Positions 1 to 22,619 of a stretch of DNA of 25,655 nucleotides are shown piece after piece. Below the pieces are notes generated by a model. That model saw nothing but the letters and a program-made list of their open reading frames with translations. It had not been told where the DNA came from and did not search any database. Numbering within the stretch: position 1 is the stretch's first letter; the number at the start of each line of letters is the position of its first letter. A program made the position numbers and the translations under genes. Source of the stretch: a virus; the IMG/VR virus record IMGVR_UViG_3300013131_002250, positions 1-25,655 of that record; one strand, given 5' to 3'.

Positions 1-1805
1 AGACCTGGCTGAGTAGCAGCATCTACTACCGCCTGAGCCACTGCCTCTGCTGTAGTTGCTTGAGCAACTACTACCTCCTGAGTATCAACGGCTGCTTGAG
101 CAGTTGCCAATACCGCTGTTTTATCTTCAACTACAACAGTGGCTGCCGCAATGGTTGGAGCAGACGCTGTAAGAGTCTCGGCGGTAGTCATAGCAGTGCT
201 AGCAGTATTGACAGCAGTCTGAGCCTCGGAAACAGCAGTCTGAGCCGCTGTAATTGCTTGAGTTGTTTGTGTTGTTGGAGTTATTGTCTCTGCTGTTGCT
301 ACAACAGTTTGAAGAGTTGACGCAACTGACTCTGTTGCTGCTGCTGAAACCACAATCTGGGCTTTAGCAACTTCAACTACTGCTTCTTTGACCTCTGTTT
401 GAGCGGTTATGGTGTTTGCTATTGCAGTTGTCTCGGTAGAGGTAGCAGTTGCGTTTGCTGTATTAGCCTCTGACTGAGCAGTTGATTGAGTGGTTTGAAG
501 AGTGGTAAGAGTTGTTTGTTCTGTAGCAAGAGTTGTTTGAGCAGCAGTATTTGTTGTTTGAAGAGTGGTAAGAGTTGTTTGTTCTGTAGCAAGAGTTGTT
601 TGAGCAGCAGTATTTGTTGTTTGAAGAGTGGTAAGAGTTGTTTGTTCTGTAGCAAGAGTATTAGATGCTGCTTGAGCAGCGGCAGTTAGTGCTGGGTCTG
701 AGGTTGTTTTTGTAACAGAAATATTATCAATTATATAATAATCAGAATCTTTTGTAATAGTGACTGTTTGAATGTTTGAACCTGTGACAGTCTCGGTTGA
801 TGTATGACTTGTTGTGCTTCCACTTGTTGCGTTGACATTGTTTTCCATAACAGTGACAGTTGCTGTACCGTTTTGGTTTGTTGTAGTGATATTTGTGTCA
901 CCATTTTTAGCATATACACCCATAGAAACTTCAGTAACAGTTCCAGTATTTGATGGGTTTACATTGATAACCACATCGTTGGCTGGATTAATAATTGTAA
1001 GACCAGGGCCACTTGTCTGAGGGGTGTTCCAGTTCCCACCTATAGAAACACCTGTTGAACTTGTAGATGAGGTAACTGTAGTTTCGCCAGTAGTTACAGT
1101 AACTACTGTAGTTGTATTATTAGAAAAAGTTTCTGTAACTGTAACACTTGAATTTGCATTTGCTGCCGCAGCATTTGCCGCATTAGCCGCTGTCTGTGCT
1201 TCTGTTACTACTGCTGTTTGTGTTGCTACAGCATTAGCCGCTGTATTGGCTGCTGTCTGTGCTTCTGTTACTACTGCTGTTTGGGTCGTAACTGCGGTGG
1301 TTGCTTGGGCCAGAGTTTGATTGGCAGTTTCCGCACTTGTAGCCGCCGTTTGGGCTGTTTCAACTGATGTTGCTGCTTGTTGCGTAGCACTATTGGCTTG
1401 TTGTATTTCTGTAGTTGCTGTCTGAACTGCCTGAGTTGTTTGTGTTGTTGGTGAAGATATTGATGATGCTACCTCCGCTATTTGGTCTACTTTTGTTTCT
1501 AAACTTGTTACAGTAGATTCTGCTGTTGCTACAGCAGTTGCCGCTTCGGATGTTGATTCTGGCGCTGAATCTCCTGAAGAAGCCTGTGGACCACCTCCCG
1601 ACGACGCACTGGACCCTGAAGAGTTATTTGTTCCAGTACCACCTCCGTTAGAGGGCGGGGCTTCATCAGCAGTAGCAGATGATAGAGTAAGTATCCCATA
1701 AACAAAAGATACTAATGGAATAGATAAAAGATAAACAATTACTTTTTTACGAGTAATTCCTGAATATAATTTCGCACGCCGGAGCAAGGGGGCAACTCCC
1801 ACCAT
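1..1805 (-). CDS. Exported Ala/Thr/Gln-rich coiled-coil surface or fibre-like protein (C-terminus off the left edge)
   Basis: An open minus-strand frame runs from ATG at 1805 to the window edge (about 600 codons). The N-terminus has a basic stretch (LLRRAKLYSGITRKK), a hydrophobic segment (VIVYLLSIPLVSFVYGI) and a possible cleavage site after SSATA, so it is probably exported or membrane-anchored. A Gly/Ser/Pro-rich linker follows, then a long Ala/Thr/Gln/Val helix-prone region. A beta-rich insert (about 700-1140; motifs GVSIGGNWN, DYYIIDNISV) resembles a jelly-roll binding domain, and then the coiled coil resumes. Two stretches repeat with a 21-residue (three-heptad) period. The start is uncertain: ATG 1805 lacks a Shine-Dalgarno (SD) site, while TTG seven codons in has GGGAG upstream. 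Apparent plus-strand ORFs here are its shadows. It could be a phage fibre, a host-surface protein or an exclusion factor; I recognise no specific family. Confidence 0.7.
   Translation of the reverse strand, partial: MVGVAPLLRRAKLYSGITRKKVIVYLLSIPLVSFVYGILTLSSATADEAPPSNGGGTGTNNSSGSSASSGGGPQASSGDSAPESTSEAATAVATAESTVTSLETKVDQIAEVASSISSPTTQTTQAVQTATTEIQQANSATQQAATSVETAQTAATSAETANQTLAQATTAVTTQTAVVTEAQTAANTAANAVATQTAVVTEAQTAANAANAAAANANSSVTVTETFSNNTTTVVTVTTGETTVTSSTSSTGVSIGGNWNTPQTSGPGLTIINPANDVVINVNPSNTGTVTEVSMGVYAKNGDTNITTTNQNGTATVTVMENNVNATSGSTTSHTSTETVTGSNIQTVTITKDSDYYIIDNISVTKTTSDPALTAAAQAASNTLATEQTTLTTLQTTNTAAQTTLATEQTTLTTLQTTNTAAQTTLATEQTTLTTLQTTQSTAQSEANTANATATSTETTAIANTITAQTEVKEAVVEVAKAQIVVSAAATESVASTLQTVVATAETITPTTQTTQAITAAQTAVSEAQTAVNTASTAMTTAETLTASAPTIAAATVVVEDKTAVLATAQAAVDTQEVVVAQATTAEAVAQAVVDAATQPG
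493..656 (-). repeat. 63-bp in-frame tandem repeat, about 2.6 copies
   Basis: The plus-strand string GTTTGAAGAGTGGTAAGAG starts at 493, 556 and 619, a period of exactly 63 bp. The third copy diverges after about 38 bases. It encodes a 21-residue unit (core TLATEQTTLTTLQTT) inside the surface protein. Identity between copies is nearly complete at DNA level, which suggests recent expansion by slippage or recombination. Confidence 0.95.
1189..1283 (-). repeat. Second 63-bp-period repeat, about 1.5 copies
   Basis: A 32-base string beginning GCTGTCTGTGCTTCTG occurs at 1189 and again at 1252, also 63 bp apart. It encodes a repeated QTAVVTEAQTAAN-type segment of the same protein. The shared 21-residue period in two different sequences points to a three-heptad structural unit. 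Confidence 0.9.
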
Positions 1806-1869: not shown

Positions 1870-2526
1870 TTATAATGCTTTACGCAGAAATGCTTTTCTT
1901 ACAGTAGAAGCGTACCACTTCTCTCCACCCAATACTGTTGGAATAGCCTCAGAATTAAGGCTATCAGCAATCATTTTATAGGATAAACCAAGATTTCTTT
2001 CACGTTCTATTCTTTCAACAACTGTTTCACTAATTAGTGGTAAAGGCCCTAAATCAACGCCCCAAACTTTGCCATTGTTACGTCTGTCTTGGTGAATGTC
2101 TTTAGAACGAAGTGAAATCATTCCGCGCTCCATCTCTGCCATAGCAGACATAATTGTTACAACAAATCTTCCTTGATATGTAGCAGTATCAAGACCTAAA
2201 TCCAGCAAAGCCAAGCGCCATCCATTTTTATGAGAGCGGTCAACTATGTCTAAGAAGTCTCTAGTTGAACGAGCAAGTCGGTCAAGACGAGTCACAAAAA
2301 GCGCCTGAGCCTTGCCATTATCTAAATCTTCGAGGGCTTGCTTGAGAATAGGACGACCTTGAATAGATTTTCCAGAGCGTCCTTCTTCTCTCAGCATTTC
2401 AACTGTATAACCCTGCGACTCTGCTGCGTAGCGAAGTTGTTTTTCTTGAGCATCAAGGCTTATGCCATCTTCTACCTGCATTTGAGTAGAAACACGAGCA
2501 TAACAAAAAGCAAGACCCTCACTCAT
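1870..2526 (-). CDS. Small serine recombinase (resolvase/invertase family)
   Basis: This 218-residue site-specific DNA recombinase has the resolvase N-terminal signature YARVSTQ, with the nucleophile at Ser13. It also has the conserved Arg-rich core (FVTRLDRLARSTRDF) and the MAEMERGMI segment leading into the long dimerisation helix. The C-terminal part (GLSYKMIADSLNSE, then WYASTVRKAF) resembles a DNA-binding HTH or the start of a Recombinase domain. At 218 residues it is closer to resolvases and invertases than to large phage integrases. The start ATG has AGGA seven bases upstream. It overlaps the preceding zinc-finger gene by 8 bp and lies downstream of thyX. Its position next to a fibre-like gene recalls invertase/tail-fibre switches, but no matched pair of inversion sites was found. 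Confidence 0.85.
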   Translation of the reverse strand: MSEGLAFCYARVSTQMQVEDGISLDAQEKQLRYAAESQGYTVEMLREEGRSGKSIQGRPILKQALEDLDNGKAQALFVTRLDRLARSTRDFLDIVDRSHKNGWRLALLDLGLDTATYQGRFVVTIMSAMAEMERGMISLRSKDIHQDRRNNGKVWGVDLGPLPLISETVVERIERERNLGLSYKMIADSLNSEAIPTVLGGEKWYASTVRKAFLRKAL

Positions 2527-2701
2527 TATGTTTTCCTAAAATTGCTTTGTGAAGATGTTTATTTGGACAAGTAGTAACTAAAGGGTCGTATTTGTTTCCA
2601 CAATCGCCACACTCCCAAATCATTTCGTGAACAGCATCGTGGTATCCATTTTTATATCCTTGGTCATACTGGTCTATAAAATGTTCTTTCATTTTTCCCA
2701 C
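2519..2701 (-). CDS. Small zinc-ribbon protein, 60 residues
   Basis: The protein has a CGDC...CPNKHLH arrangement (Cys-x2-Cys, about 11 residues, then Cys and His), suggesting one zinc site. The GTG start overlaps the TAG stop of thyX by one base, implying translational coupling; an ATG three codons later is an alternative. It overlaps the downstream recombinase by 8 bp, so the three genes are probably one operon. No specific family is recognised. Confidence 0.65.
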   Translation of the reverse strand: MGKMKEHFIDQYDQGYKNGYHDAVHEMIWECGDCGNKYDPLVTTCPNKHLHKAILGKHNE

Positions 2702-3414
2702 TAAGGAGCCACCCTTCCGTTTTTTACAAACGCAGCGTGGGTTAGTGGCATCAACTTTTCAAAGACCTTTTCATACTTTTCGGCAACCATCTCAATCTCG
2801 CGTTGGGGGAATGATGGAAAGCGCTGACCTTCAACATTGCGACGAAGGCTCAGAAAGTTCATAAGAGAACGAGCATTGATAGTTACATAGGCAGATGAAT
2901 AAATTGTTACTGGAAGCACTCCACGAGCAACTTCTCTAGCAACTCCATGACGAACCATTTCGTCATACGCCATGTAAGCCTCGCTACAAGACCTGCGATA
3001 GTTGACCATAGTTATGGCAGATTGCTCGGCACTTCCATCTTCAAATGTGTAAGCGCCAGGTTTGCCAATCTGAAGAAGTTTTCTATCTCTGTTGGGAACA
3101 TAGAACTCTGGATTCAGAATTCTGTATCTTCCAGATTCTTCGTTGTAGGAAGCAATTCTGTGGCGCATATGTTCACGCCAAACAAAGATGGGGGCTTTGA
3201 CATAAAAGGTGAAGACAGAATGCTCAAATGGTGAGCCATGCCTGTCTCTCATCAAAAAGCCAATAAGACCGCTGAGTTTCTTTTCGTCAGTTTCTGGGTA
3301 GCCAAGCGAACGCTCGCCTTGAGTTGAGACTCTGGCAGCAAAAGCAACATCTTGGTCAGATGCGCTGTGTTTGACTAATTCAACTGTGACGTCAGAACTA
3401 AATTTGACGTCCAA
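2701..3414 (-). CDS. thyX: Flavin-dependent thymidylate synthase ThyX
   Basis: ThyX makes dTMP from dUMP using FAD, methylene-tetrahydrofolate and NADPH. This 237-residue protein carries the diagnostic RHRx7S motif as RHRIASYNEES (residues 84-94) in the usual context (FVWREHMRHR, then GRYRILNPEFYVP). The C-terminal RSLMNFLSLR segment is also typical. The length matches the family. The start is TTG at 3414 with AAGGAG six bases upstream. Phages commonly carry thyX to supply thymidylate during replication. It fits functionally with the ribonucleotide reductase in this window, although the two are about 17 kb apart. Confidence 0.97.
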   Translation of the reverse strand: MDVKFSSDVTVELVKHSASDQDVAFAARVSTQGERSLGYPETDEKKLSGLIGFLMRDRHGSPFEHSVFTFYVKAPIFVWREHMRHRIASYNEESGRYRILNPEFYVPNRDRKLLQIGKPGAYTFEDGSAEQSAITMVNYRRSCSEAYMAYDEMVRHGVAREVARGVLPVTIYSSAYVTINARSLMNFLSLRRNVEGQRFPSFPQREIEMVAEKYEKVFEKLMPLTHAAFVKNGRVAP

Positions 3415-4476: not shown

Positions 4477-4528
4477 AATGTAGCCCTATACAATGGAAAG
4501 TGCAAATCTTTGCGCTCTCATTACGTTA
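4477..4528. promoter_or_regulatory. Intergenic element copy A (TATACAAT ... GCGCTCTC block)
   Basis: TATACAAT (4487-4494) and GCGCTCTCATTACGTTA (4512-4528) are separated as in three other copies: exactly 21 bp between TATA and GCGCTCTC. It also contains the dyad GCAAA-TC-TTTGC. On the minus strand TTGCAC-N17-TACATT (4505 down to 4477) forms a sigma70-like promoter for the 4468 gene. Both neighbouring genes are on the minus strand. Confidence 0.7.
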
Positions 4529-4602
4529 ACGGAAGAGGGGGAACGAGGAAGGAGTGTGTGTTTTGTGTATTTGCTGGGCTGACTCCCTCCCAGGGCTAAA
4601 GA

Positions 4603-4878
4603 CTAAGCCTTCTCCAGGGCAACCTCGCGCTTAGAGCGGTTGATTCCTTTCTTTACTTTTTCTTTTAGGATAGTTCTAAACTGACCTAAACCATCAAAGC
4701 AAGTAACTGCTTCTCCTTGAACATAAAGAAATGTCCACATTCCGCGCTCGCCCTTTACTTTGAACTTTGAACCGCTCTTGAGAGTTTTGACTCCCTTTAT
4801 CTCAAGTACAGCGCTGACGTCAGATGGAATAGTTCCTTTAGGAAAATATCTTTCTAAAGCAAACTTTTCTTTTGTCAT
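4603..4878 (-). CDS. Hypothetical protein, 91 residues
   Basis: This is a small basic protein, probably mostly beta (VLEIKGVKTLKSGSKFKVKG, then MWTFLYVQGEAVTCFDG). The start at 4878 is chosen because AGGGAGGA lies just upstream; the longer frame lacks an SD. It is transcribed from element B (TTGCAC-N17-TAGAAT). It resembles actinophage orphans with an SH3-like feel, but I assign no family. Confidence 0.65.
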   Translation of the reverse strand: MTKEKFALERYFPKGTIPSDVSAVLEIKGVKTLKSGSKFKVKGERGMWTFLYVQGEAVTCFDGLGQFRTILKEKVKKGINRSKREVALEKA

Positions 4879-4895
4879 TTTTCCTCCCTGAAGTG

Positions 4896-4947
4896 ATTCT
4901 ATCACTATACAATAGAAAGTGCAAATCTTTGCGCTCTCGTTCCGTTA
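4896..4947. promoter_or_regulatory. Intergenic element copy B, between divergent genes
   Basis: TATACAAT (4906-4913) and GCGCTCTCGTTCCGTTA (4931-4947) are present. The GCAAA-TC-TTTGC dyad is identical to copy A. On the minus strand TTGCAC (4924-4919), N17 and TAGAAT (4901-4896) make a good promoter for the 4878 gene. On the plus strand TACAAT is a possible -10, and the block runs directly into GGAG and the TTG start of the GNAT gene. Confidence 0.75.
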
Positions 4948-4957
4948 GGAGTATCAT

Positions 4958-5455
4958 TTGAGTATGAAGCGACATAGGGATTTTGGTGGGGTAGTGGATG
5001 ATGTGGTTTATTTTGATGATGGGGCTGTGAGGCTTTTTGAGCCCTCGTACAGACAGGCTGGCGAACTGGATGCCCTGAAGAAGGAGTTAGAGTCTTATTT
5101 GGCTCCTACACGCATTGAATACGCAACTGTATCAACTATAGTAAACGAAAAGTTTGCTATAGGTTACGGAAATACAGTTGTAGGCGAACTGACAATTATG
5201 GACAGAGGAACCGTCGGAATCTGGCGTGACCCAAAGTTAATTGGACGGAGCATAGGCTCTAGAGCCCTGAAGTTGTTGGTAGATAACTACAAAGTTTATT
5301 CGCAGTATCGCGCCTACATACTTCCTACAAACGCAGATAGCAAGAAGATGGTTGAGAAGGTGGGCTTTGTCAACCAAGGAATTAGCACTGAACGTTTTTA
5401 TGTGGGTGGCGAATGGGTAGAGCACGAAGAGTACATCTATACAATAAGAAAATGA
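4958..5455 (+). CDS. GNAT-family N-acetyltransferase
   Basis: This is a putative acetyl-CoA-dependent acyltransferase of 165 residues. The C-terminal half has the GNAT pattern: an acceptor strand (VVGELTI), a P-loop-like IGRSIGSRALKLL in the Q/RxxGxG/A position, and the late motif NADSKKMVEKVGF followed by a YVGGEWV strand. The first ~50 residues match nothing I recognise. The start is TTG 4958, seven bases after GGAG; ATG 4964 is the alternative but is 13 bases away. It overlaps the next gene by 4 bp (ATGA). The substrate is unknown. Confidence 0.7.
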   Translation: MSMKRHRDFGGVVDDVVYFDDGAVRLFEPSYRQAGELDALKKELESYLAPTRIEYATVSTIVNEKFAIGYGNTVVGELTIMDRGTVGIWRDPKLIGRSIGSRALKLLVDNYKVYSQYRAYILPTNADSKKMVEKVGFVNQGISTERFYVGGEWVEHEEYIYTIRK

Positions 5456-6213
5456 CAATGCTAAAAAGAGAAAAAAATCCAATTACTGTTTATTGGTCTC
5501 CATTTTTTGAAGATAGCCCTACTTTGCTTGAGCCAGACTGGAATATGTTGTATCAAAACCCTGAATTAGTACATTTAGACTTAATAAACAATAAAGAAAA
5601 AACATCTAAAAATAAATCTTCTTTTAACTGTCCAGCAGTAAATGATAGACATTCTTCATCTTATGTATTTAAGAACAACTCAAGAACCACTTTTAGTTAT
5701 GATTTTAGTGATTTATCTAATCCAATAGTTGAGTCTTTAGAAGGAATACATTCTACATACTATAAACAGCCTAATATAGTTGGTAGTGGATATGTAAGAG
5801 TTTCTCTAAAGTGGGTGTTTTTTTGTGAAGAATCAGTAGTAGCAATTACAAATCATCCATATGCCCACAAACCAACAGAATACTCTGTAAATTGTTTATT
5901 TCCCTCTGGAAGATATGACATAAGTAAGTGGATTAGACCAGTCTCTATGGAAGTTCAAACTTGGAATGAAAAAGGAAAAATAACTATAAATGAAGGAGAC
6001 CCTCTTTTTTACTTAGAATTGATAACTAATAGACCAGTAATTATGAAAAGATTTAATGTAAACAAAGCATTGTATAGATATATAATTGCTTGTTCTCAAG
6101 CAGCAAGTAGTTATGGACCAAACAAACCTCTTGCAGAAAGATACTACAGATTTATTTCTACAAGTACAGACAAACTTGTTCTTAGAGAAATAAAGAAAAA
6201 TCTAATACAATAG
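5452..6213 (+). CDS. AT-rich orphan protein, 253 residues
   Basis: The ATG overlaps the TGA of the GNAT gene, so the two are coupled. The sequence is rich in aromatic, Asn and Ser residues (ITVYWSPFFEDSP at the N-terminus; LFPSGRYDISKWIRPVSMEVQ in the middle) and looks soluble. Codons are far more AT-rich than in the flanking genes, with runs of AAA, AAT and TTA, which suggests separate origin by transfer. Proteins opening with VYWSP are known to me as orphans in marine phages, but I cannot assign a role. Confidence 0.7.
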   Translation: MTMLKREKNPITVYWSPFFEDSPTLLEPDWNMLYQNPELVHLDLINNKEKTSKNKSSFNCPAVNDRHSSSYVFKNNSRTTFSYDFSDLSNPIVESLEGIHSTYYKQPNIVGSGYVRVSLKWVFFCEESVVAITNHPYAHKPTEYSVNCLFPSGRYDISKWIRPVSMEVQTWNEKGKITINEGDPLFYLELITNRPVIMKRFNVNKALYRYIIACSQAASSYGPNKPLAERYYRFISTSTDKLVLREIKKNLIQ

Positions 6214-6257
6214 AAAATTTATTTTTTCGCGCTCTCGTTCCGTTATAGAAAGAGGAA
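6204..6257 (+). promoter_or_regulatory. Intergenic element copy C, before the Ntn-hydrolase gene
   Basis: TACAAT (6206-6211) overlaps the stop of the preceding gene. GCGCTCTCGTTCCGTTA lies at 6229-6245, with the same 21-bp spacing as other copies although the sequence between is different (AT-rich). An AGAGGAAG SD and the ATG at 6262 follow. Both flanking genes are on the plus strand, so this copy argues for plus-strand function. Confidence 0.7.
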
Positions 6258-6261
6258 GCAG

Positions 6262-6792
6262 ATGACGACGGTAATAGGGATTCAAAGGGTGGATGGGTGT
6301 GTGTTGGTGGCGGACAGCCGTACAACTGGGGAGTCTGGCAGACCGTACTCGCACATTCTTGTAAACAAGATAACCATGCGTGATGAGTTTCTTATTGGTG
6401 GTGCTGGTGACCCGCAAGCCTGTGACATTGTTCAGCACATTTGGGAAATTCCAGAGTTTGTTGAAGATGAAGATGCTTATAGATTTATGGTGACTAAAGT
6501 TGCGCCAAGCATTCGTACTTGTCTTAAGGACAATGGATACGAAAAAGACAAACAAGACAAAGACTCAGGGTTTGTTTTTCTTCTTGCTTTTAGAGGAATT
6601 ATTTACGAACTAGATGAGACATTTACTGTTTCTATGACGGATAGTGGAATTTATGGAATTGGTAGCGGAAGCAAATACGCAATTGGAGCGCTACAAGCAG
6701 GGGCAGAATGGCCTCTTGCGATGGAAATAGCAGAGAACAATGACATCTACACCTCTGCTCCATTTCGCCTTTTTCAACAAGACAAAATTTAA
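6262..6792 (+). CDS. Proteasome-beta/HslV-like Ntn-hydrolase
   Basis: The protein is 176 residues, somewhat shorter than a typical 20S beta subunit. After Met removal the N-terminus is TTVIGIQ, with Thr1 as possible nucleophile. Asp17 falls exactly in VLVADSRTT, and a lysine at position 35 (VNKITMRD) is close to the family's Lys33. GIYGIGSGSKYAIGAL matches the Gly/Ser-rich segment near Ser129. It therefore looks like a catalytically competent threonine peptidase rather than a relic. It has a strong SD (AGAGGAAG) and its own element-C promoter region, and overlaps the convergent HNH gene by 4 bp. No unfoldase partner is visible in the window. Confidence 0.75.
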   Translation: MTTVIGIQRVDGCVLVADSRTTGESGRPYSHILVNKITMRDEFLIGGAGDPQACDIVQHIWEIPEFVEDEDAYRFMVTKVAPSIRTCLKDNGYEKDKQDKDSGFVFLLAFRGIIYELDETFTVSMTDSGIYGIGSGSKYAIGALQAGAEWPLAMEIAENNDIYTSAPFRLFQQDKI

Positions 6793-7316
6793 GAGGCTCG
6801 CTTTTTTGCTCTGTAAGTTCTCATATACAAAGCCTTCTTTTCTTTAGGTATGTTTCGTTTGTTTTCTCTGTTTGATATCTTGCGACAGATGTAGCAAATT
6901 GGGTATCCATCTTTGTAAATAGTGTTTTCTGGCGTTCTTGGGTGCCCGTTTTTACAGTAAGGCTTGAGGCTTGGTCTTCCAACAATAGTTTCAATACTTG
7001 TGTTCTGTCCCCGCTCTATTGCCATTTGGTTGTTTTCGTAAGGAGTGCCCAACTGAAGATGAGCAGGGTTTACGCATTGTTTGTTATCGCAGATGTGCAT
7101 GACGTGAAGTTTGCTACTAGGCATCTCGTAATCATTATAAACTATGGACCAAGATATTCTGTGAGCAAGCATTGGTTTTCTTTTTTTATAAGCAAAGACG
7201 CCATACCCATTTGAGTTATGAGCAGCAATCCAAAACCAGCAGTCATCCTCTTCTTCGTCTACTAATACCTTCTCCCAAAACCTCCGAGAGCGTTCTTCCG
7301 TCCATTTTAGCCTCAC
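6789..7316 (-). CDS. HNH homing-type endonuclease
   Basis: The HNH core is visible: CWFWIAAHNSNGYG, then AHRISW, then HVMHICDNKQCVNPAHLQLGT with the expected Cys, Asn and His residues. A C-terminal zinc region (CKNGHPRTPEN ... CYICRK) and a basic tail follow. Free-standing enzymes of this architecture are common mobile genes in phages. The GTG start at 7316 overlaps the upstream TGA (GTGA) with AGGGGA upstream; a longer GTG start at 7343 is possible. Confidence 0.88.
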   Translation of the reverse strand: MRLKWTEERSRRFWEKVLVDEEEDDCWFWIAAHNSNGYGVFAYKKRKPMLAHRISWSIVYNDYEMPSSKLHVMHICDNKQCVNPAHLQLGTPYENNQMAIERGQNTSIETIVGRPSLKPYCKNGHPRTPENTIYKDGYPICYICRKISNRENKRNIPKEKKALYMRTYRAKKRAS

Positions 7317-7957
7317 CCAAGTTTTCCCCTGTTTTCTTCCCACCTATCAATATCAACAGGAAAATCAAAATCCTCTGTCCAATCATCTATCTCTACGGAA
7401 AAAGTATTTTTGAACTCGTGTACTAATCTTTTGTGTAAATGCCAACCGCCAGTTCTAAAGGCTATGCTAGATTCAATAATTTCTAAAATTCTTGCTTTGA
7501 GCATTTCGTTAGACGAACCTTTGAAAGCAATTCCAAATATCTCGCGCCAAGGTTTTCCAGTAAGGTTTGAAGCCTTGCTTCTAATGAAAAAAGTAAACTC
7601 TCCCTCGTCTTTCATAATTGTCTCTACTGCTTCATCTGTGAAGTAGACATCTCCAAAGACTAAAACTGTACGCTCTTCAGACCAAATATCTCGTGATGAC
7701 CAAAACTTAGCCATATCTTTCCATTTAGGATGATAAGGCGGAATATAGCAACGAGCGCCATCTACTTCGTAAGACTTGTCACTACCAACAACTACAACAT
7801 CACTAGAGTATTTTAGGAACTGCCTGACAGTTCTTTCAATGAGAACTTCACCTTCAATGACAAGTTTATGTTTCTGAACACCCCTGTAGTTTTCCCAGCG
7901 CGAGCCCTCCCCCGCCGCGAGAATAAGGACTCTTGATTTGATGTCTTTAGAATCCAC
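7313..7957 (-). CDS. GT-A-fold nucleotidyltransferase (NTP-transferase family)
   Basis: The N-terminus carries the sugar-1-phosphate/phosphocholine nucleotidyltransferase loop RVLILAAGEGSRW, then LVIEGEVLIERTVRQ and the metal-binding FGDVYFTDE. It would activate a sugar or alcohol phosphate with an NTP. GTG 7957, preceded by GGAG at the end of the upstream gene, is chosen over the 8020 start, which would overlap that gene by 74 bp. The protein has 214 residues. It may supply an activated sugar to the phage glycosyltransferases here; the substrate cannot be read from sequence. Confidence 0.75.
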   Translation of the reverse strand: MDSKDIKSRVLILAAGEGSRWENYRGVQKHKLVIEGEVLIERTVRQFLKYSSDVVVVGSDKSYEVDGARCYIPPYHPKWKDMAKFWSSRDIWSEERTVLVFGDVYFTDEAVETIMKDEGEFTFFIRSKASNLTGKPWREIFGIAFKGSSNEMLKARILEIIESSIAFRTGGWHLHKRLVHEFKNTFSVEIDDWTEDFDFPVDIDRWEENRGKLG

Positions 7958-8450
7958 GCTTTGAACACTCCAAGTCAAGTTCTGAGACTGACTTACCCTT
8001 TGAAAAGTTTGCTGCTTCATCCTTTGAGAAGCCTTCTTTCAAAAACTGATGAATGCCTAAACGCTTTATTCTTTTCTTTAGGACTGCATTTTCTTTATTT
8101 TCTTCTGCGACCATAGCATAATATAAATAACAATACAAAGCCTCTGCCTCTTCTTGGTCAGGACAAAAAAGGCTTATCTTATGAATTAAGTCAAGGATTT
8201 CTATTTTTATATCTTTAGAAACAGCGTTATAAATAATTATAAAGTTAGAGTAGAAAAGGTCAGTGCTGTTTTTGTTGTAATGAGTTCTTATCTTTTCAAA
8301 CATCTCTGTATCAGAGGGCCATAAAGCCCAGCCATAAAAATCTGTTCTTACAGCGTACTTATCAAACCTACCTGCATCAAAACCTATCTCGCCAGCAAAG
8401 ATAGTGTGAGTGTTTCTATAGTGTCTGCTTTTTTCCATTGAAAGGGCCAC
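7947..8450 (-). CDS. Hypothetical protein, about 167 residues
   Basis: The first half contains a conserved-looking segment (IFAGEIGFDAGRFDKYAVR then YGWALWPSD); the second half is helical, with DQEEAEALYCYLYYAMVAEE and a Lys/Arg-rich region. GTG 8450 sits 6 nt after TATAGT in element D, which suits a leaderless mRNA; ATG 8438 is an alternative and neither has an SD. It overlaps the nucleotidyltransferase gene by 11 bp, so the two and the HNH gene form one transcript. No family is recognised. Confidence 0.6.
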   Translation of the reverse strand: MALSMEKSRHYRNTHTIFAGEIGFDAGRFDKYAVRTDFYGWALWPSDTEMFEKIRTHYNKNSTDLFYSNFIIIYNAVSKDIKIEILDLIHKISLFCPDQEEAEALYCYLYYAMVAEENKENAVLKKRIKRLGIHQFLKEGFSKDEAANFSKGKSVSELDLECSKRGF

Positions 8451-8458
8451 TTGATAAC

Positions 8459-8515
8459 TATACAATGAGAAATGCGTTTTTCCGCGCTCTCGTTCCGTTA
8501 TAGGCGGAGGAAGAA
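8459..8515. promoter_or_regulatory. Intergenic element copy D
   Basis: TATACAAT (8459-8466) and GCGCTCTCGTTCCGTTA (8484-8500) have the constant 21-bp spacing. Plus-strand TTGAAA (8438-8443)-N17-TACAAT would be a good promoter, yet no plus gene follows. On the minus strand TATAGT lies 6 nt before the GTG of the 8450 gene. A GGCGGAGGAAG purine tract follows the block, as in copies A and C. Confidence 0.7.
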
Positions 8516-8521
8516 CCGAGT

Positions 8522-8779
8522 TTAGGAGATGGGGTTGTTGGGGAAATTGGTGGGGTCGTCGGTAAGGAGGGAGTCGTAGGTGCTTGGGGGAACGATTTGC
8601 GCCGCTTTCTCGTGAGCCTTGAGATGGTCGAGCATTTCTACAGTTGACTCCGCTAAATAACTTGGCTCCAAGTCGTCACCGAAATAGCAAGCAGCGCATA
8701 TAAGTAAGTCTTTTTGACCAATGCTGGTGTAGTAAACATAAACATCTGAATTGTCCCAGCCAAATCTTGCATAACTCAT
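8522..8779 (-). CDS. Small zinc-finger-like actinophage protein, 85 residues
   Basis: The opening MSYARFGWDNSDVYVY, a CAAC pair and a later MLDHLKAHEKAAQIVPP helix give a Cys2...His2 pattern seen in many short actinophage proteins. The two halves probably bind one zinc. The ATG is 6 nt downstream of a TAAACT box and has no SD, so translation may be leaderless. Function is unknown. Confidence 0.65.
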   Translation of the reverse strand: MSYARFGWDNSDVYVYYTSIGQKDLLICAACYFGDDLEPSYLAESTVEMLDHLKAHEKAAQIVPPSTYDSLLTDDPTNFPNNPIS

Positions 8780-11320: not shown

Positions 11321-12445
11321 ATGTATAACATTCTCCATGGAGACTGCCTAGACCTTCTTACTACGCTTGAAGAAAAAAGCGTCGATTCAATAATTACAGA
11401 CCCACCATACGAACTTGGATTTATGGGTAGGTCTTGGGACTCAACTGGTATTGCTTTTAGTCCAGATGTTTGGAAAGCAGCGTTAAGAGTTCTCAAACCT
11501 GGCGGATATATTCTTGCTTTTTCTAGCGCTCGCACTTATCACCGAATGGCAGTTGCTATTGAAGATGCTGGTTTTGAAATTCGTGACCAAATTATGTGGG
11601 TCTACGGTTCTGGTTTTCCTAAGTCAATGAATATTGCTCTTGCTATGGAAAAGAAAGGTCTTGACTCTTCTCAATGGGAAGGTTGGGGAACTGCTCTTAA
11701 ACCAGCACACGAACCAATTGTTATGGCAAGAAAACTTTTTGAGGGAACAGTTGTAGATAACGTATTGACTTGGGGAGTTGGAGGCATTAATATAGACGCA
11801 TCACGAGTTCCTGGTGAACCCGTGCCAATTAATAAACTTGAAGAGTGGTCGGGGTTCGGTCAAAAGATTGAACCAGACTACAAACAAGAAATGAATACAA
11901 GTGGACGCTTTCCAGCAAACTTTATTCACGATGGAAGTGATGAAGTTGTTGAATTGTTTCCTCGCGCTAAGGGTGGCGCTTATCCATCAGTCAGGGGTAA
12001 GAGTGACATTGGCGCCTTCGCACAAGGAGGAACTCATAAAGACAAACCAAATCAAGCCAGAGTCATGGGAGACGATGGTTCGGCAGCGAGATTCTTTTAC
12101 TGCGCTAAAGCAAACTCAAAAGACCGAAACGAAGGTCTCGAAAATTATCAAAATGGACAACGAGACTTATTTAGTGGAGACAACGACTCTACTAGAGACA
12201 ACTCTGTCAATGACGAAGATAAACGAAAAAACACTCATCCAACAGTAAAACCAACGGAGTTAATGCGCTATCTAATAAAGATGGTGACTCCTTCTGGCGG
12301 AACTGTGCTTGACCCGTTTGCTGGGTCTGGTTCTACTGGAAAAGCAGCAATGTTAGATGGGTACAAGTTCATTGGCATTGAGATGAATGAAGAGTATGTA
12401 GCAATCGCTAAGGCAAGAATTGAACACGCTTTATCAAAAAAGTAG
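11321..12445 (+). CDS. Site-specific DNA methyltransferase (N6-adenine/N4-cytosine type)
   Basis: The catalytic motif IV DPPY is at residues 27-30 (DSIITDPPYELGF). The SAM-binding motif I DPFAGSGSTGKAAM lies about 40 residues from the C-terminus, followed by FIGIEMNEEYVAIA. Motif IV before motif I indicates the beta order. The middle is a 200-residue target-recognition region. At 374 residues it is typical of phage orphan methylases, and no cognate nuclease is adjacent. It is followed 8 bp later by a Mom-like gene, suggesting a joint anti-restriction role. Confidence 0.93.
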   Translation: MYNILHGDCLDLLTTLEEKSVDSIITDPPYELGFMGRSWDSTGIAFSPDVWKAALRVLKPGGYILAFSSARTYHRMAVAIEDAGFEIRDQIMWVYGSGFPKSMNIALAMEKKGLDSSQWEGWGTALKPAHEPIVMARKLFEGTVVDNVLTWGVGGINIDASRVPGEPVPINKLEEWSGFGQKIEPDYKQEMNTSGRFPANFIHDGSDEVVELFPRAKGGAYPSVRGKSDIGAFAQGGTHKDKPNQARVMGDDGSAARFFYCAKANSKDRNEGLENYQNGQRDLFSGDNDSTRDNSVNDEDKRKNTHPTVKPTELMRYLIKMVTPSGGTVLDPFAGSGSTGKAAMLDGYKFIGIEMNEEYVAIAKARIEHALSKK

Positions 12446-12453
12446 CGTGATGT

Positions 12454-13089
12454 ATGGGGTTGAAGGAAGACTACGACATTGAAAAAATTTCATACGAAAC
12501 GGCTATGGATATTGTTATTGCCAATCATTATCTTCATAGGAAGTGTCCTGTTTCTCAGGCTTTTGGGTTGGTTGATAAAAGAGATAGACGAGTCGTTGGA
12601 GTCGTTACCTACGGAGTAAGTCCTTCTTCTACGCTTCTCAAAGGCATATGTGGACCAGAAGAAATGTATAACGTCTATGAACTAAATAGGCTGTGGGTTG
12701 AGGACTCTGTGCCTAAAAACGGAGAAAGTTATCTAGTAGGCAACACTATGAAGTTATTAGATAGAGAAATTATTGTTTCCTTTGCTGACACATCGCAAGG
12801 GCACGTTGGTTATATCTATCAAGCCTCTAATTTTATTTACACTGGACTATCTGCCAAATTCAAAGACCCGAAGGTGCGTGGGCGTGAAAATCAACATCAC
12901 GCAACTTACGCAAACGGATTGACTAATCAGCAAGTCATTGACAAGTTTGGCGCTGATAATGTTTACTTTGTTGAGCGTCCACGCAAGCACAGATACATAT
13001 TTTTCAACTGTAGCAAGACGCGAAGAAAAGAACTGCTAAAGAAACTTAGATATAAAGTTATTGAATATCCGAAGCGCCAGATGGTATAA
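12454..13089 (+). CDS. Mom-like DNA adenine modification protein (GNAT-related)
   Basis: Phage Mu Mom converts adenine in DNA to N6-carbamoylmethyladenine. This 211-residue protein shows the pattern I associate with Mom-family proteins: NHYLHRKCPVSQAFGL, then VVGVVTYG, then NVYELNRLWVEDSVPKNGES, then a central IVSFADTSQGHVGYIYQASN. A basic Lys/Arg C-terminus (RKHRYIFFNCSKTRRK) would suit DNA binding. It lies 8 bp after the methyltransferase gene with no SD of its own. The assignment is by remembered motif pattern, not alignment. Confidence 0.75.
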   Translation: MGLKEDYDIEKISYETAMDIVIANHYLHRKCPVSQAFGLVDKRDRRVVGVVTYGVSPSSTLLKGICGPEEMYNVYELNRLWVEDSVPKNGESYLVGNTMKLLDREIIVSFADTSQGHVGYIYQASNFIYTGLSAKFKDPKVRGRENQHHATYANGLTNQQVIDKFGADNVYFVERPRKHRYIFFNCSKTRRKELLKKLRYKVIEYPKRQMV

Positions 13090-18519: not shown

Positions 18520-18903
18520 CTAGAGCGAGCCTTCTTCTTCTAAAACAAAACCAGAGGCTCTGTCATAGAGGCGCCAGTCCGCTGAGACGACATTGAAGCG
18601 CTCCTGAAGTGCTTTGAATACTTCATCTTTTACCAGCGACCCACAGGTGTAGAGGTCAAACTGAAGTATTCCTGGGTCGTGCTCATCCCAGATGTGAAAT
18701 GCGATATGGCTAGTTTCAATCATGACAATGGCGGTAAGGCCCTTGTTTCCTTCAGCATCTACATACTTTGCGTATGGACCCTTGATGACCTTCATTCCAA
18801 TTCGGTCTACGAGTCTGTCTAGAAACTGAATGGCATCTAATTCATTTTGAATTGGGTTAGATACCTTGGCGTTTATGAGTATGTGCTTGTGCTGTATAGA
18901 CAT
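18520..18903 (-). CDS. S-adenosylmethionine decarboxylase-like (SpeD) pyruvoyl proenzyme
   Basis: This 127-residue protein shows the bacterial SpeD core: self-processing Ser65 and His66 in IETSHIAFHIWDEH, the conserved His70, and Cys87 in YTCGS. The length is right for class 1b SpeD. The residue before the pyruvoyl serine is Thr64, where SpeD normally has Glu. SpeD supplies decarboxylated SAM for spermidine; some SpeD homologues, including phage ones, have instead become ornithine or arginine decarboxylases. No spermidine synthase gene is in the window. AAGGAG precedes the ATG. It follows whiB by 49 bp. Confidence 0.75.
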   Translation of the reverse strand: MSIQHKHILINAKVSNPIQNELDAIQFLDRLVDRIGMKVIKGPYAKYVDAEGNKGLTAIVMIETSHIAFHIWDEHDPGILQFDLYTCGSLVKDEVFKALQERFNVVSADWRLYDRASGFVLEEEGSL

Positions 18904-20088: not shown

Positions 20089-20543
20089 GGAAACTTTAAC
20101 TCTCCTTTAGGACCAGTCCAAACTAACCCTATTGAATCTCCAGGATTTAAGTATTGTTGGTCTATAGCAAGTTGTCCCCAGCCCCATTCTTTTCTTGGAA
20201 ATGGTAAAACTTGTTTTTCTTTTATAATAATTGCCCAATAGGCTTCTGCTGGTGGCATAACTTCACAAGTTTCCATAAATTTATCTGGAAGACCATTTAG
20301 TCTACAAAGAACACCGTCACCATATTTTTGTGTTCCTTCTGTGGTGTAGCCAGAAGTTTTTAGAAGTTCTAATGCGTTTGTTTCAGCAGATACCTGTATG
20401 CACTTTTCTATTTTTGTTTCAGCATCGAGAGAGCCAAAATCAACATACAAGTTGACGCAATCAGCATCAGCCTTACTCAAAAAAGACAACCCAAGAAAAG
20501 TTAGACAAATAATTAAAAAAGATGGTATTAGTCTGTTTTTCAC
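20085..20543 (-). CDS. Secreted DUF4430/SCO2322-like protein (transcobalamin C-terminal-like fold)
   Basis: A signal peptide (FLIICLTFLGLSFLSKADA, cut near residue 27) is followed by a ~125-residue domain. The order of motifs is that of DUF4430-type proteins: a long helix with ALELLKTSGY, then YGDGVLCRLNGLPD, then PPAEAYWAIII and a final LNPGDSIGLVWTG. Four Cys (29, 48, 80, 93) may form two disulfides. The DUF4430 fold is the C-terminal domain of transcobalamins. SCO2322-type proteins are, to my memory, found near ECF-transporter genes in Actinobacteria. The GTG start overlaps the nrdJ stop (GTGA). Cobalamin capture is inferred from context. Confidence 0.6.
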   Translation of the reverse strand: MKNRLIPSFLIICLTFLGLSFLSKADADCVNLYVDFGSLDAETKIEKCIQVSAETNALELLKTSGYTTEGTQKYGDGVLCRLNGLPDKFMETCEVMPPAEAYWAIIIKEKQVLPFPRKEWGWGQLAIDQQYLNPGDSIGLVWTGPKGELKFP

Positions 20544-22582
20544 TGATTGTCCTTAATAAGTTTCACCTCGCAAGCGTCAGTAGTACAGTATGCCTCACCG
20601 ATGGCATCAGAAGCAAGTCCCGCATAAATACCTGAAAAATCTATTGGGAAGAGTTTGAGTGTTCCCTCATCTTCATACTCCTTTTCGGTAATCTGAGTGT
20701 AAGGCAACTGAGGATAAGTAAAGTTTCCTGAAGGTAAGAACGAAACAGTCTTGAGTTGTCCGTCATACATGTGAAGGACTGTGCCTACATGCTCTGACTC
20801 TTTTTCAGGGTCAAATGAGATGGTGACAGAAACAGAGTTGTCAGACCAATAACGTTGAGCAACTGCTGCAAGCGACATCTTTTCAAAAATTGTTACATCA
20901 CGCTCTGCTCTAAGAGCCTCGGACTTGATTGGGAAGAAAACAACACTGGTTGTGTCGGGTGATTCCACCGCTGCTTCAACTCGGTAGTTAGCCATCTTGA
21001 AAAGAGCAAGCATTGGGTCTTGGTTAGAGAAACGAATTGCACGATTGAAATACTTTCCTCCTGGAGTCCAATGAACTCCTGGAGATTCACCAGCAAGAAT
21101 GCTAACCGTTCCACTAGGTTTTACTGTTGTTGTTTTGATTGATTCACGAACACCAAGCCATTCGGAGTATGTTTTGTCATACGCTTGAATAGTTTTATAT
21201 CCTGAGTCCATCCATTCACGAAGAGTTGGAAGACCAACACGGTCAGCGAAGTTAGCAACTCCTGACATTGACGTGCCAATGCGACGATTACGCTGCATAA
21301 TTGCGTTGGTCTCTTCCCAGTGGGTTGGAAGAAGAGTGACAGTCTTTGCGTAAAGATAAGCAAATTTGAGTGTTCGGTTGTAATCTTCAGATGATTCATG
21401 TCTGTTGAGATAAGTTTCTACAAGTGTGCAGCACTCAAAAGATTCAAGTGATTGTTCTGCGCAAGGGTTATAACCTGATACACGCCAGTCTTTATTGTTT
21501 TCTGGGTCAGCAAGACGACCATACTTACGAGATACATCAAGCCAAATAACTCCAGGTTCTCCGTTGCGAGCAATGCCATCAACAATTGGAGATAAATCAG
21601 TGCCAACCGTTGCTTCTACAGAGTTGTTTGACATCCATGCCCAGCCTGGATTTGCTGGGTCATAAGAGTTACGCTCTGGATAAACTTCAGCGTTTTTTAG
21701 ATTTAGAAAATCAGAATCGTCAACACGACCAATAAGAAGTTCAGCGCTACGACGAACATTCCCACTAACAACACATACGCCAATAAGATTGCCAATATCA
21801 GCAATGTCCTTACGAGTGAGTTTTTCATCAGCACGTCCTTTGAATAATTTATGGATGTGGGTATGAAGTTTTTCTAGCGGTTTATGTCCTGCTGCTGTTC
21901 CTCCGAATGTTTTGATTGGAGTTCCCTCAGGACGTATTTCCGAGTAATCAAATAATGGAGTCTTCGTATCTGGTCGGAGGTAAGCATTGAGGATGAGGAC
22001 GAGTGATTCGACCCAGCCTTCTCTGGTGTCTGGAATGACATATGTTTCCTCTCCCTTAGGTTCATAAATTATAAAGTCTTTGTCAGCGCCCTTATCATCA
22101 AATCCAACGCCAACACCAAGCATTGATGCTTCCATCAAGAAAGCAAAAGGTTTTGCTGGATTTAGTTTTGTCATTTCTGTTGTAGAAACAAAAGCACAAT
22201 TTTGTAGAGCGGCTGAGTTTCTTTGGATGTTTACGATTGGAGTTCCCATAATCCAAAGACCGCGTCCTGGCGGAGTCCACTTCAAATTGAAGAGGCGGTC
22301 AAATGCTTCTTTTGCTGATGCTGCTGCACGAGTATCAGACCAAGGAAGACGCTGTGCTTTAGCGTGGTCCTTTTGAATTGAATACATTCCATTGATAACG
22401 CGCTCGCAGACATTAACCCAAGTTTCTTTTGTGCCATCTTCTTTTAGACGAGAGTAAGTTCGTAAGAAAGTAATTTCGCCAACCGAGTTACCAGCAGCGT
22501 CTCGGTATCCGAAGGGTGCTTGCTTTGACTTATAGCCTTCTACAAAATCCTCTGACAACCTAAAAGAAAAAGCAATAGACAC
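20540..22582 (-). CDS. nrdJ: Adenosylcobalamin-dependent (class II) ribonucleoside-triphosphate reductase
   Basis: The protein (680 residues) resembles the monomeric Lactobacillus-type enzyme, which reduces NTPs to dNTPs using a thiyl radical made from AdoCbl. Redox Cys129 is in AALQNCAFVS. NPCAEQ carries the thiyl Cys374, and Cys385 (ECCTLVE) lies 11 residues later, the same spacing as C408/C419 of the reference enzyme. SGNVRRSAELL and MEASMLGVGVGFDD are also typical. A C-terminal CTTDAC keeps the Cys-x4-Cys shuttle pair. GTG 22582 with GAGGAG six bases upstream is chosen over the longer frame. It is the first gene of the cobalamin operon. Confidence 0.95.
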   Translation of the reverse strand: MSIAFSFRLSEDFVEGYKSKQAPFGYRDAAGNSVGEITFLRTYSRLKEDGTKETWVNVCERVINGMYSIQKDHAKAQRLPWSDTRAAASAKEAFDRLFNLKWTPPGRGLWIMGTPIVNIQRNSAALQNCAFVSTTEMTKLNPAKPFAFLMEASMLGVGVGFDDKGADKDFIIYEPKGEETYVIPDTREGWVESLVLILNAYLRPDTKTPLFDYSEIRPEGTPIKTFGGTAAGHKPLEKLHTHIHKLFKGRADEKLTRKDIADIGNLIGVCVVSGNVRRSAELLIGRVDDSDFLNLKNAEVYPERNSYDPANPGWAWMSNNSVEATVGTDLSPIVDGIARNGEPGVIWLDVSRKYGRLADPENNKDWRVSGYNPCAEQSLESFECCTLVETYLNRHESSEDYNRTLKFAYLYAKTVTLLPTHWEETNAIMQRNRRIGTSMSGVANFADRVGLPTLREWMDSGYKTIQAYDKTYSEWLGVRESIKTTTVKPSGTVSILAGESPGVHWTPGGKYFNRAIRFSNQDPMLALFKMANYRVEAAVESPDTTSVVFFPIKSEALRAERDVTIFEKMSLAAVAQRYWSDNSVSVTISFDPEKESEHVGTVLHMYDGQLKTVSFLPSGNFTYPQLPYTQITEKEYEDEGTLKLFPIDFSGIYAGLASDAIGEAYCTTDACEVKLIKDNQ

Positions 22583-22619
22583 GATAATCTCCTCTTTGCG
22601 TAAATACGAATTCAATACT

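Follow-up and report, generated by a model that had tools for sequence, protein, structure and literature searches.

The 25,655-nucleotide stretch of viral DNA analyzed here (IMG/VR record IMGVR_UViG_3300013131_002250, positions 1 to 25,655; hereafter, the window) harbors four copies of an intergenic element which we interpret, with a probability of about two in three, as the recombination joint of a gene-cassette array with an integron-like layout, the adjacent serine recombinase being the likely enzyme. The recombinase, the sites and the genes around them are arranged as follows:

1870..2526, minus strand: small serine recombinase of 218 aa, the likely array enzyme (PF00239, E=2e-36; motifs YARVS and TRLDRLARS)
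4487..4560, plus strand: site A, with TATACAAT at 4487-4494, A/T tract at 4495-4511, core at 4512-4528 (2 mismatches) and purine/G tract to ~4560
4603..4878, minus strand: gene of cassette A-B, DUF7246-like, 91 aa (profile match below the curated cut-off)
4906..5000, plus strand: site B, with TATACAAT at 4906-4913, A/T tract at 4914-4930, core at 4931-4947 and a purine/G tract entering the GNAT gene
4964..5455, plus strand: gene of cassette B-C, GNAT acetyltransferase-like (profile match)
5413..6213, plus strand: 266-aa ORF without a family match, located between the GNAT gene and site C
6203..6310, plus strand: site C, with TAATACAAT at 6203-6211, A/T tract at 6212-6228, core at 6229-6245 and a purine/G tract entering the Ntn-hydrolase gene
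6262..6792, plus strand: gene of cassette C-D, Ntn-hydrolase, proteasome-like (profile match)
6789-7343, minus strand: HNH endonuclease, interval C-D
7313-8020, minus strand: MobA-like nucleotidyltransferase, interval C-D
7947-8465, minus strand: DUF7004, interval C-D
8459..8600, plus strand: site D, with TATACAAT at 8459-8466, A/T tract at 8467-8483, core at 8484-8500 and a G-rich tract entering the 3' end of the minus gene 8522-8779
8522..8779, minus strand: small CxxC...HxxxH protein to the right of site D (homologues lie right of sites in several relatives)

The same phage fragment also encodes ThyX (2701-3414), an N6/N4 DNA methylase (11321-12445), a Mom-like DNA modification protein (12454-13089), a SAM decarboxylase-like protein (18520-18903) and a ribonucleotide reductase (20540-22615) that is 78% identical to that of phage DSL-LC01. 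A tandem repeat with three exact TTGAAGAGTGGTAAGAGTTGTTTG copies at 63 bp spacing occupies positions 495-644.

The four copies, which an earlier note on this DNA had placed at 4487, 4906, 6204 and 8459, are real and all lie on the plus strand. Copies B (4931), C (6229) and D (8484) match the core 17-mer GCGCTCTCGTTCCGTTA exactly, whereas copy A (4512) reads GCGCTCTCATTACGTTA, with two mismatches; 0.03 matches with up to three mismatches would be expected in shuffled sequence. The fixed register described in that note proved exact, TATACAAT (AATACAAT in copy C) ending 17 bp before GCGC and GCGC standing 21 bp after 'TATA', and the gene contexts also agreed (minus/minus at A, minus/plus at B, plus/plus at C, minus/minus at D, under a single orientation throughout). 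The spacer between TATA and GCGC had been called differing among copies, yet it is filled by a conserved A-tract/T-tract, AAAAn4-6TTTTTC, that had been overlooked. Likewise, the SD-like purine tract is present but belongs to a larger purine/G tract, found even where no plus-strand gene lies 3' of it. With position 0 set at the G of GCGCTC, the cores are followed by a purine-rich tract and then by a G-rich, C-depleted one (51% G and 3% C at +40..+60), which on the site strand reaches into the coding sequence of either strand. This G-rich tract is retained where it is coding, both in the window (4529-4600, 4948-5020, 6246-6330 and 8501-8600) and in related copies. Across all copies compared, core positions 3-5, 10-12 and 14 are nearly fixed, and positions 6-9 vary (TCGT, TAGG, TCTT, CCTT and others).

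In individual copies, folding can pair the purine tract with the core, as a non-coding RNA or RNA structure at each copy would predict; this pairing nevertheless reached -11.3 kcal/mol against -11.4 kcal/mol with shuffled tracts, no covariation was found among the copies, and no Rfam match exceeded the threshold. Two frames show a tempting codon pattern, which stops interrupt, and by inspection no frame holds a constant start codon, so that a short peptide was rejected as well; we consider an RNA or peptide product scarcely credible. A Rho-type rut site on the C-rich minus strand, through which some minus genes are translated, was unsupported.

The motif search in relatives that the earlier note had proposed recovered further copies. 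Scanning the exact 17-mer across 2.9 million viral contigs matched 10 other contigs, every one with related flanks, and a weight matrix run over 1.22 Mb of related phage loci detected 51 distinct copies, the reversed sequence used as control giving two matches at most under the lowest threshold and no match at scores of 10 or more. Two degenerate scans raised the number of distinct copies to 81. In a sequence-model scan, the copies formed one cluster of 5-22 kb per large record, accompanied by a few isolated weaker matches far from the array (G049:116299, G051:19697 and G051:156118), which are possibly dispersed single insertions. Among 84,980 bacterial and archaeal genomes (GTDB), the exact core was matched 11 times, never with the element's flanks, and these matches look like chance; named phages gave no DNA match.

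These copies fall into two genome types. In window-type records (type I), TANAAT occurs exactly at -23..-18 in 29/29 copies regardless of the neighboring genes, whereas type II records keep the core without TANAAT and present, in most copies, a minus-strand TATAAT at -31..-26 instead. The promoter option of the earlier note is partly supported, by the type I copies and not by the other core-bearing genomes. If the element took no part in exchange and were purely a promoter with a site bound by a phage transcription factor (activator, repressor or stoperator), the hexamers at a fixed register in each type would be accommodated. We judge this very unlikely, given that the geometry to the -10 differs between the types, that the array and not the gene direction sets the orientation, and that precise gain and loss of cassettes is left unexplained. 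By an automatic ORF caller, the gene contexts across copies were minus/minus in 29, minus/plus in 13, plus/plus in seven and plus/minus in two, and nearly every element adjoins a gene start. A replication or R-loop reading built on the -10 and the G-run is disfavored by the absence of the -10 in type II genomes. In the type II arrays L058, L060, L161 and L173, the left genes of many sites share the N-terminus MPILGT.ASQ, followed in several of these proteins by a YLVVAGGGGGG-type glycine-rich stretch, in what looks like an adhesin-like paralogue family.

The behavior of the flanking sequences gave strong support to the third option of the earlier note, a portable boundary cassette for gene exchange. 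Where copies from different records had homologous proteins on one or both sides, 90 pairs were homologous on one side only and 15 on both, and gene adjacency was kept in 23% of comparisons across an element, compared with 56% across the other boundaries in the same regions. The Ntn-hydrolase gene, for instance, has different left neighbors across a site in relatives. The 3' end of the GNAT gene keeps TATACAATAAGAAAA (5438) where a full site (12805) stands in the relative L066, which indicates that a further gene, the ORF running to 6213, sits between. At the DNA level, 37 of 50 close pairs, which are not independent events, shared one flank only, the switch falling inside the element: left-sharing pairs are identical at positions 0-5 and have lost identity by +15, and right-sharing pairs are identical or nearly so from +15/+16 onward.

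Four empty/occupied pairs revealed whole cassettes gained or lost: 441 bp with an HNH-like gene (L218 vs L214; flank identity ~98-99.6%), 705 bp with a 211-aa ORF (L218 vs L219; ~97.5-98%), 3,831 bp (L236 vs L234; ~95%) and 749 bp (L186 vs L184; ~89%). The possible crossover windows, -6..7, -1..1, -7..7 and 1..6 respectively, have in common the bond 0|1, that is, TTTTTTCG^CGCTC; the joint nearer the recombinase is a degenerate core in two of the events (705 bp and 749 bp). Of the distinct indels called from raw alignment gaps, 8/53 lie at a site, and most of the non-site indels are alignment gaps of lower identity or fall on the downstream side of the recombinase; only 2.3% of the array positions lie within 20 bp of a site. 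Between the near-identical phages L214-L223, indels of 1.0-1.3 kb also occur away from the element, at ~+1.6 to +3.2 kb relative to the start of the recombinase; genes are therefore also turned over nearby by some other means.

One pair, L012_2657/L169_9015, is identical only from ~+9 and conflicts with a crossover at 0|1. A crossover elsewhere in the core would be at home in the main rival explanation, in which the element is a regulatory boundary conserved for promoter or factor binding and shuffled by general homologous recombination, as are the promoter/stem-loop cassettes of T4, exchange being a by-product and the recombinase a mere neighbor. The TANAAT at fixed register in window-type genomes and the gene start at nearly every element are in keeping with it too, and the core without a -10 in type II genomes speaks against it. 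So does the agreement of sites within a genome: the difference at core positions 0-5 is 0.106 among sites of one record and 0.286 between records, whereas the flanks differ equally within and between records (0.738 / 0.737 and 0.714 / 0.715), so that unrelated cassettes carry their own genome's version of the site. A single recombinase, or exchange recurring at the site, would be expected to produce such genome-wide agreement.

The candidate enzyme lies 2 kb from the sites. The window protein has a resolvase-family catalytic domain with the nucleophile serine and the arginines, its YARVS and TRLDRLARS motifs are invariant in eight aligned relatives, and it also has a partial PF07508 domain. 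Its PDB matches are resolvases and the TP901-1 integrase, and its AlphaFold model has a mean pLDDT of 66. The array was accompanied by a PF00239 serine recombinase, encoded on the opposite strand, in 12/15 records tested, and the remaining three are contigs truncated close to the first element; a tyrosine recombinase (PF00589, including IntI) was found near the array in 0/15. Judging from sequence, this protein, in place of the HTH and WhiB proteins named in the earlier note, is likely the key partner of the array.

The linkage also holds in the reverse direction. We fetched 75 loci by the recombinase protein alone (68-95% identity) and then scanned them for the element, which was present upstream in 48 of the 49 loci having at least 3 kb of upstream sequence; in the 49th, L201 (record G019), it lies ~13 kb upstream on the same contig. 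Over 430 kb upstream and 540 kb downstream of the recombinase, 199 sites were upstream on the opposite strand, none upstream on the same strand and two downstream. Both downstream sites belong to L194 (record G002), where they are mirrored at +7474 and +8901 from the recombinase, the sole such case; they could allow inversion of the segment containing the recombinase. Among 20 mom-bearing records without the element, several of them fragments, 19 also lack the recombinase; the exception, phage DSL-LC01, has a 62% identical recombinase and no recognizable site. DSL-LC01 does show a weak two-copy repeat with CAGGCGTCCCTAT (L147:3606-3626 and L147:7362-7382), upstream of the recombinase in the expected orientation, which might represent decayed sites or chance.

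This restriction of the sites to the neighborhood of one recombinase, on one side and one strand, counts against shuffling by homologous recombination, although the linkage could reflect synteny by descent. Co-divergence of recombinase and site (Mantel test) was set aside as confounded by phylogeny, given that the flanks correlate too. On the other side stands the symmetry of the site: a search for inverted half-sites around a 2-bp crossover gave a best score of 0.413 against a column-shuffled mean of 0.412, and the absence of a dyad is unusual for a serine recombinase dimer. Because of this lack, homologous shuffling at a shared boundary, in which the recombinase would be a bystander, is the main rival, which on balance we regard as unlikely.

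Under the preferred recombination-joint reading, each joint would be asymmetric and built from two cassette ends. The left part, running to TTTTTTCG and made of the A-tract and T-tract (preceded in window-type genomes by TANAAT), would represent the right-hand end of one cassette, and the right part (CGCTCnnnnTCCGTTA, purine tract and G-run) the left-hand end of the next. The recombinase would recognize the T-tract/GCGCTC/TCCGTTA block and cut and join the sites exactly at TTTTTTCG^CGCTC or close to it. Directly oriented sites would permit single cassettes to be excised, inserted or exchanged with their orientation kept, regardless of the direction of the inner gene. The portable -10 of window-type genomes may express plus-strand genes to its right. 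Recombination does not require the type I -10 or the G-run, and neither is accounted for by this explanation. We lean modestly toward a broader formulation, gene capture convergent with integrons, in which a small serine recombinase acts on short, asymmetric, non-hairpin double-stranded sites and inserts, excises or exchanges accessory cassettes of actinobacteriophages; in one branch, the cassette ends would bear a portable promoter.

Integrons resemble the array in having a recombinase gene at one end and same-orientation sites between mobile cassettes, and in the gain and loss of whole cassettes. The phage-borne integrons found in the literature searched use IntI and attC, and CALINs are known in virulent phages (PMC9892861). 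The array differs in its recombinase, serine instead of tyrosine, and in its sites, which show neither the attC hairpin with R boxes (an R' box at the core or an R''..R' pair in 0/79 copies) nor any structure or covariation; because of enzyme and site, we do not class it as an integron despite its layout. Moreover, most genes here point towards the recombinase and not away from it, and each cassette is able to bring start signals of its own.

The T4-type mobile promoter/stem-loop cassettes (PeSL), whose promoter and stem-loop are oriented with the downstream gene, share with the element a conserved intergenic position at module joints and a promoter-like part. Unlike them, the element is tied to one locus and one recombinase, is oriented independently of gene direction, has no supported stem-loop and is kept in genomes without the -10. 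The multi-site inversion systems Cin/Gin/Min, in which inverted sites flank invertible segments, also place a serine invertase next to several sites, and some type II arrays lie beside adhesin-like genes; in contrast, 199/201 sites here are direct, the two mirrored ones being those of G002, and the small enzyme carries a partial PF07508 domain. Mycobacteriophage stoperators, bound by the phage repressor to block transcription, and start-associated sequences are likewise short asymmetric intergenic repeats of actinobacteriophages, whereas the present element has exchanged flanks, is linked to a recombinase and is not tied in one sense to gene starts.

No serine-recombinase cassette array in phages was found in the literature searched, a provisional statement of novelty with most subscription journals outside its scope. 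Phage genomes are mosaic, yet the enzymes and sites that set their joints are mostly unknown; this array, borne by phages with WhiB and other actinophage genes, gives the joint sequence, a candidate enzyme and natural before/after genomes together, which makes it directly testable. If the proposed reading is true, it could yield a small orthogonal tool for cassette exchange, and the array would represent the integron plan invented a second time, independently and with another recombinase chemistry.
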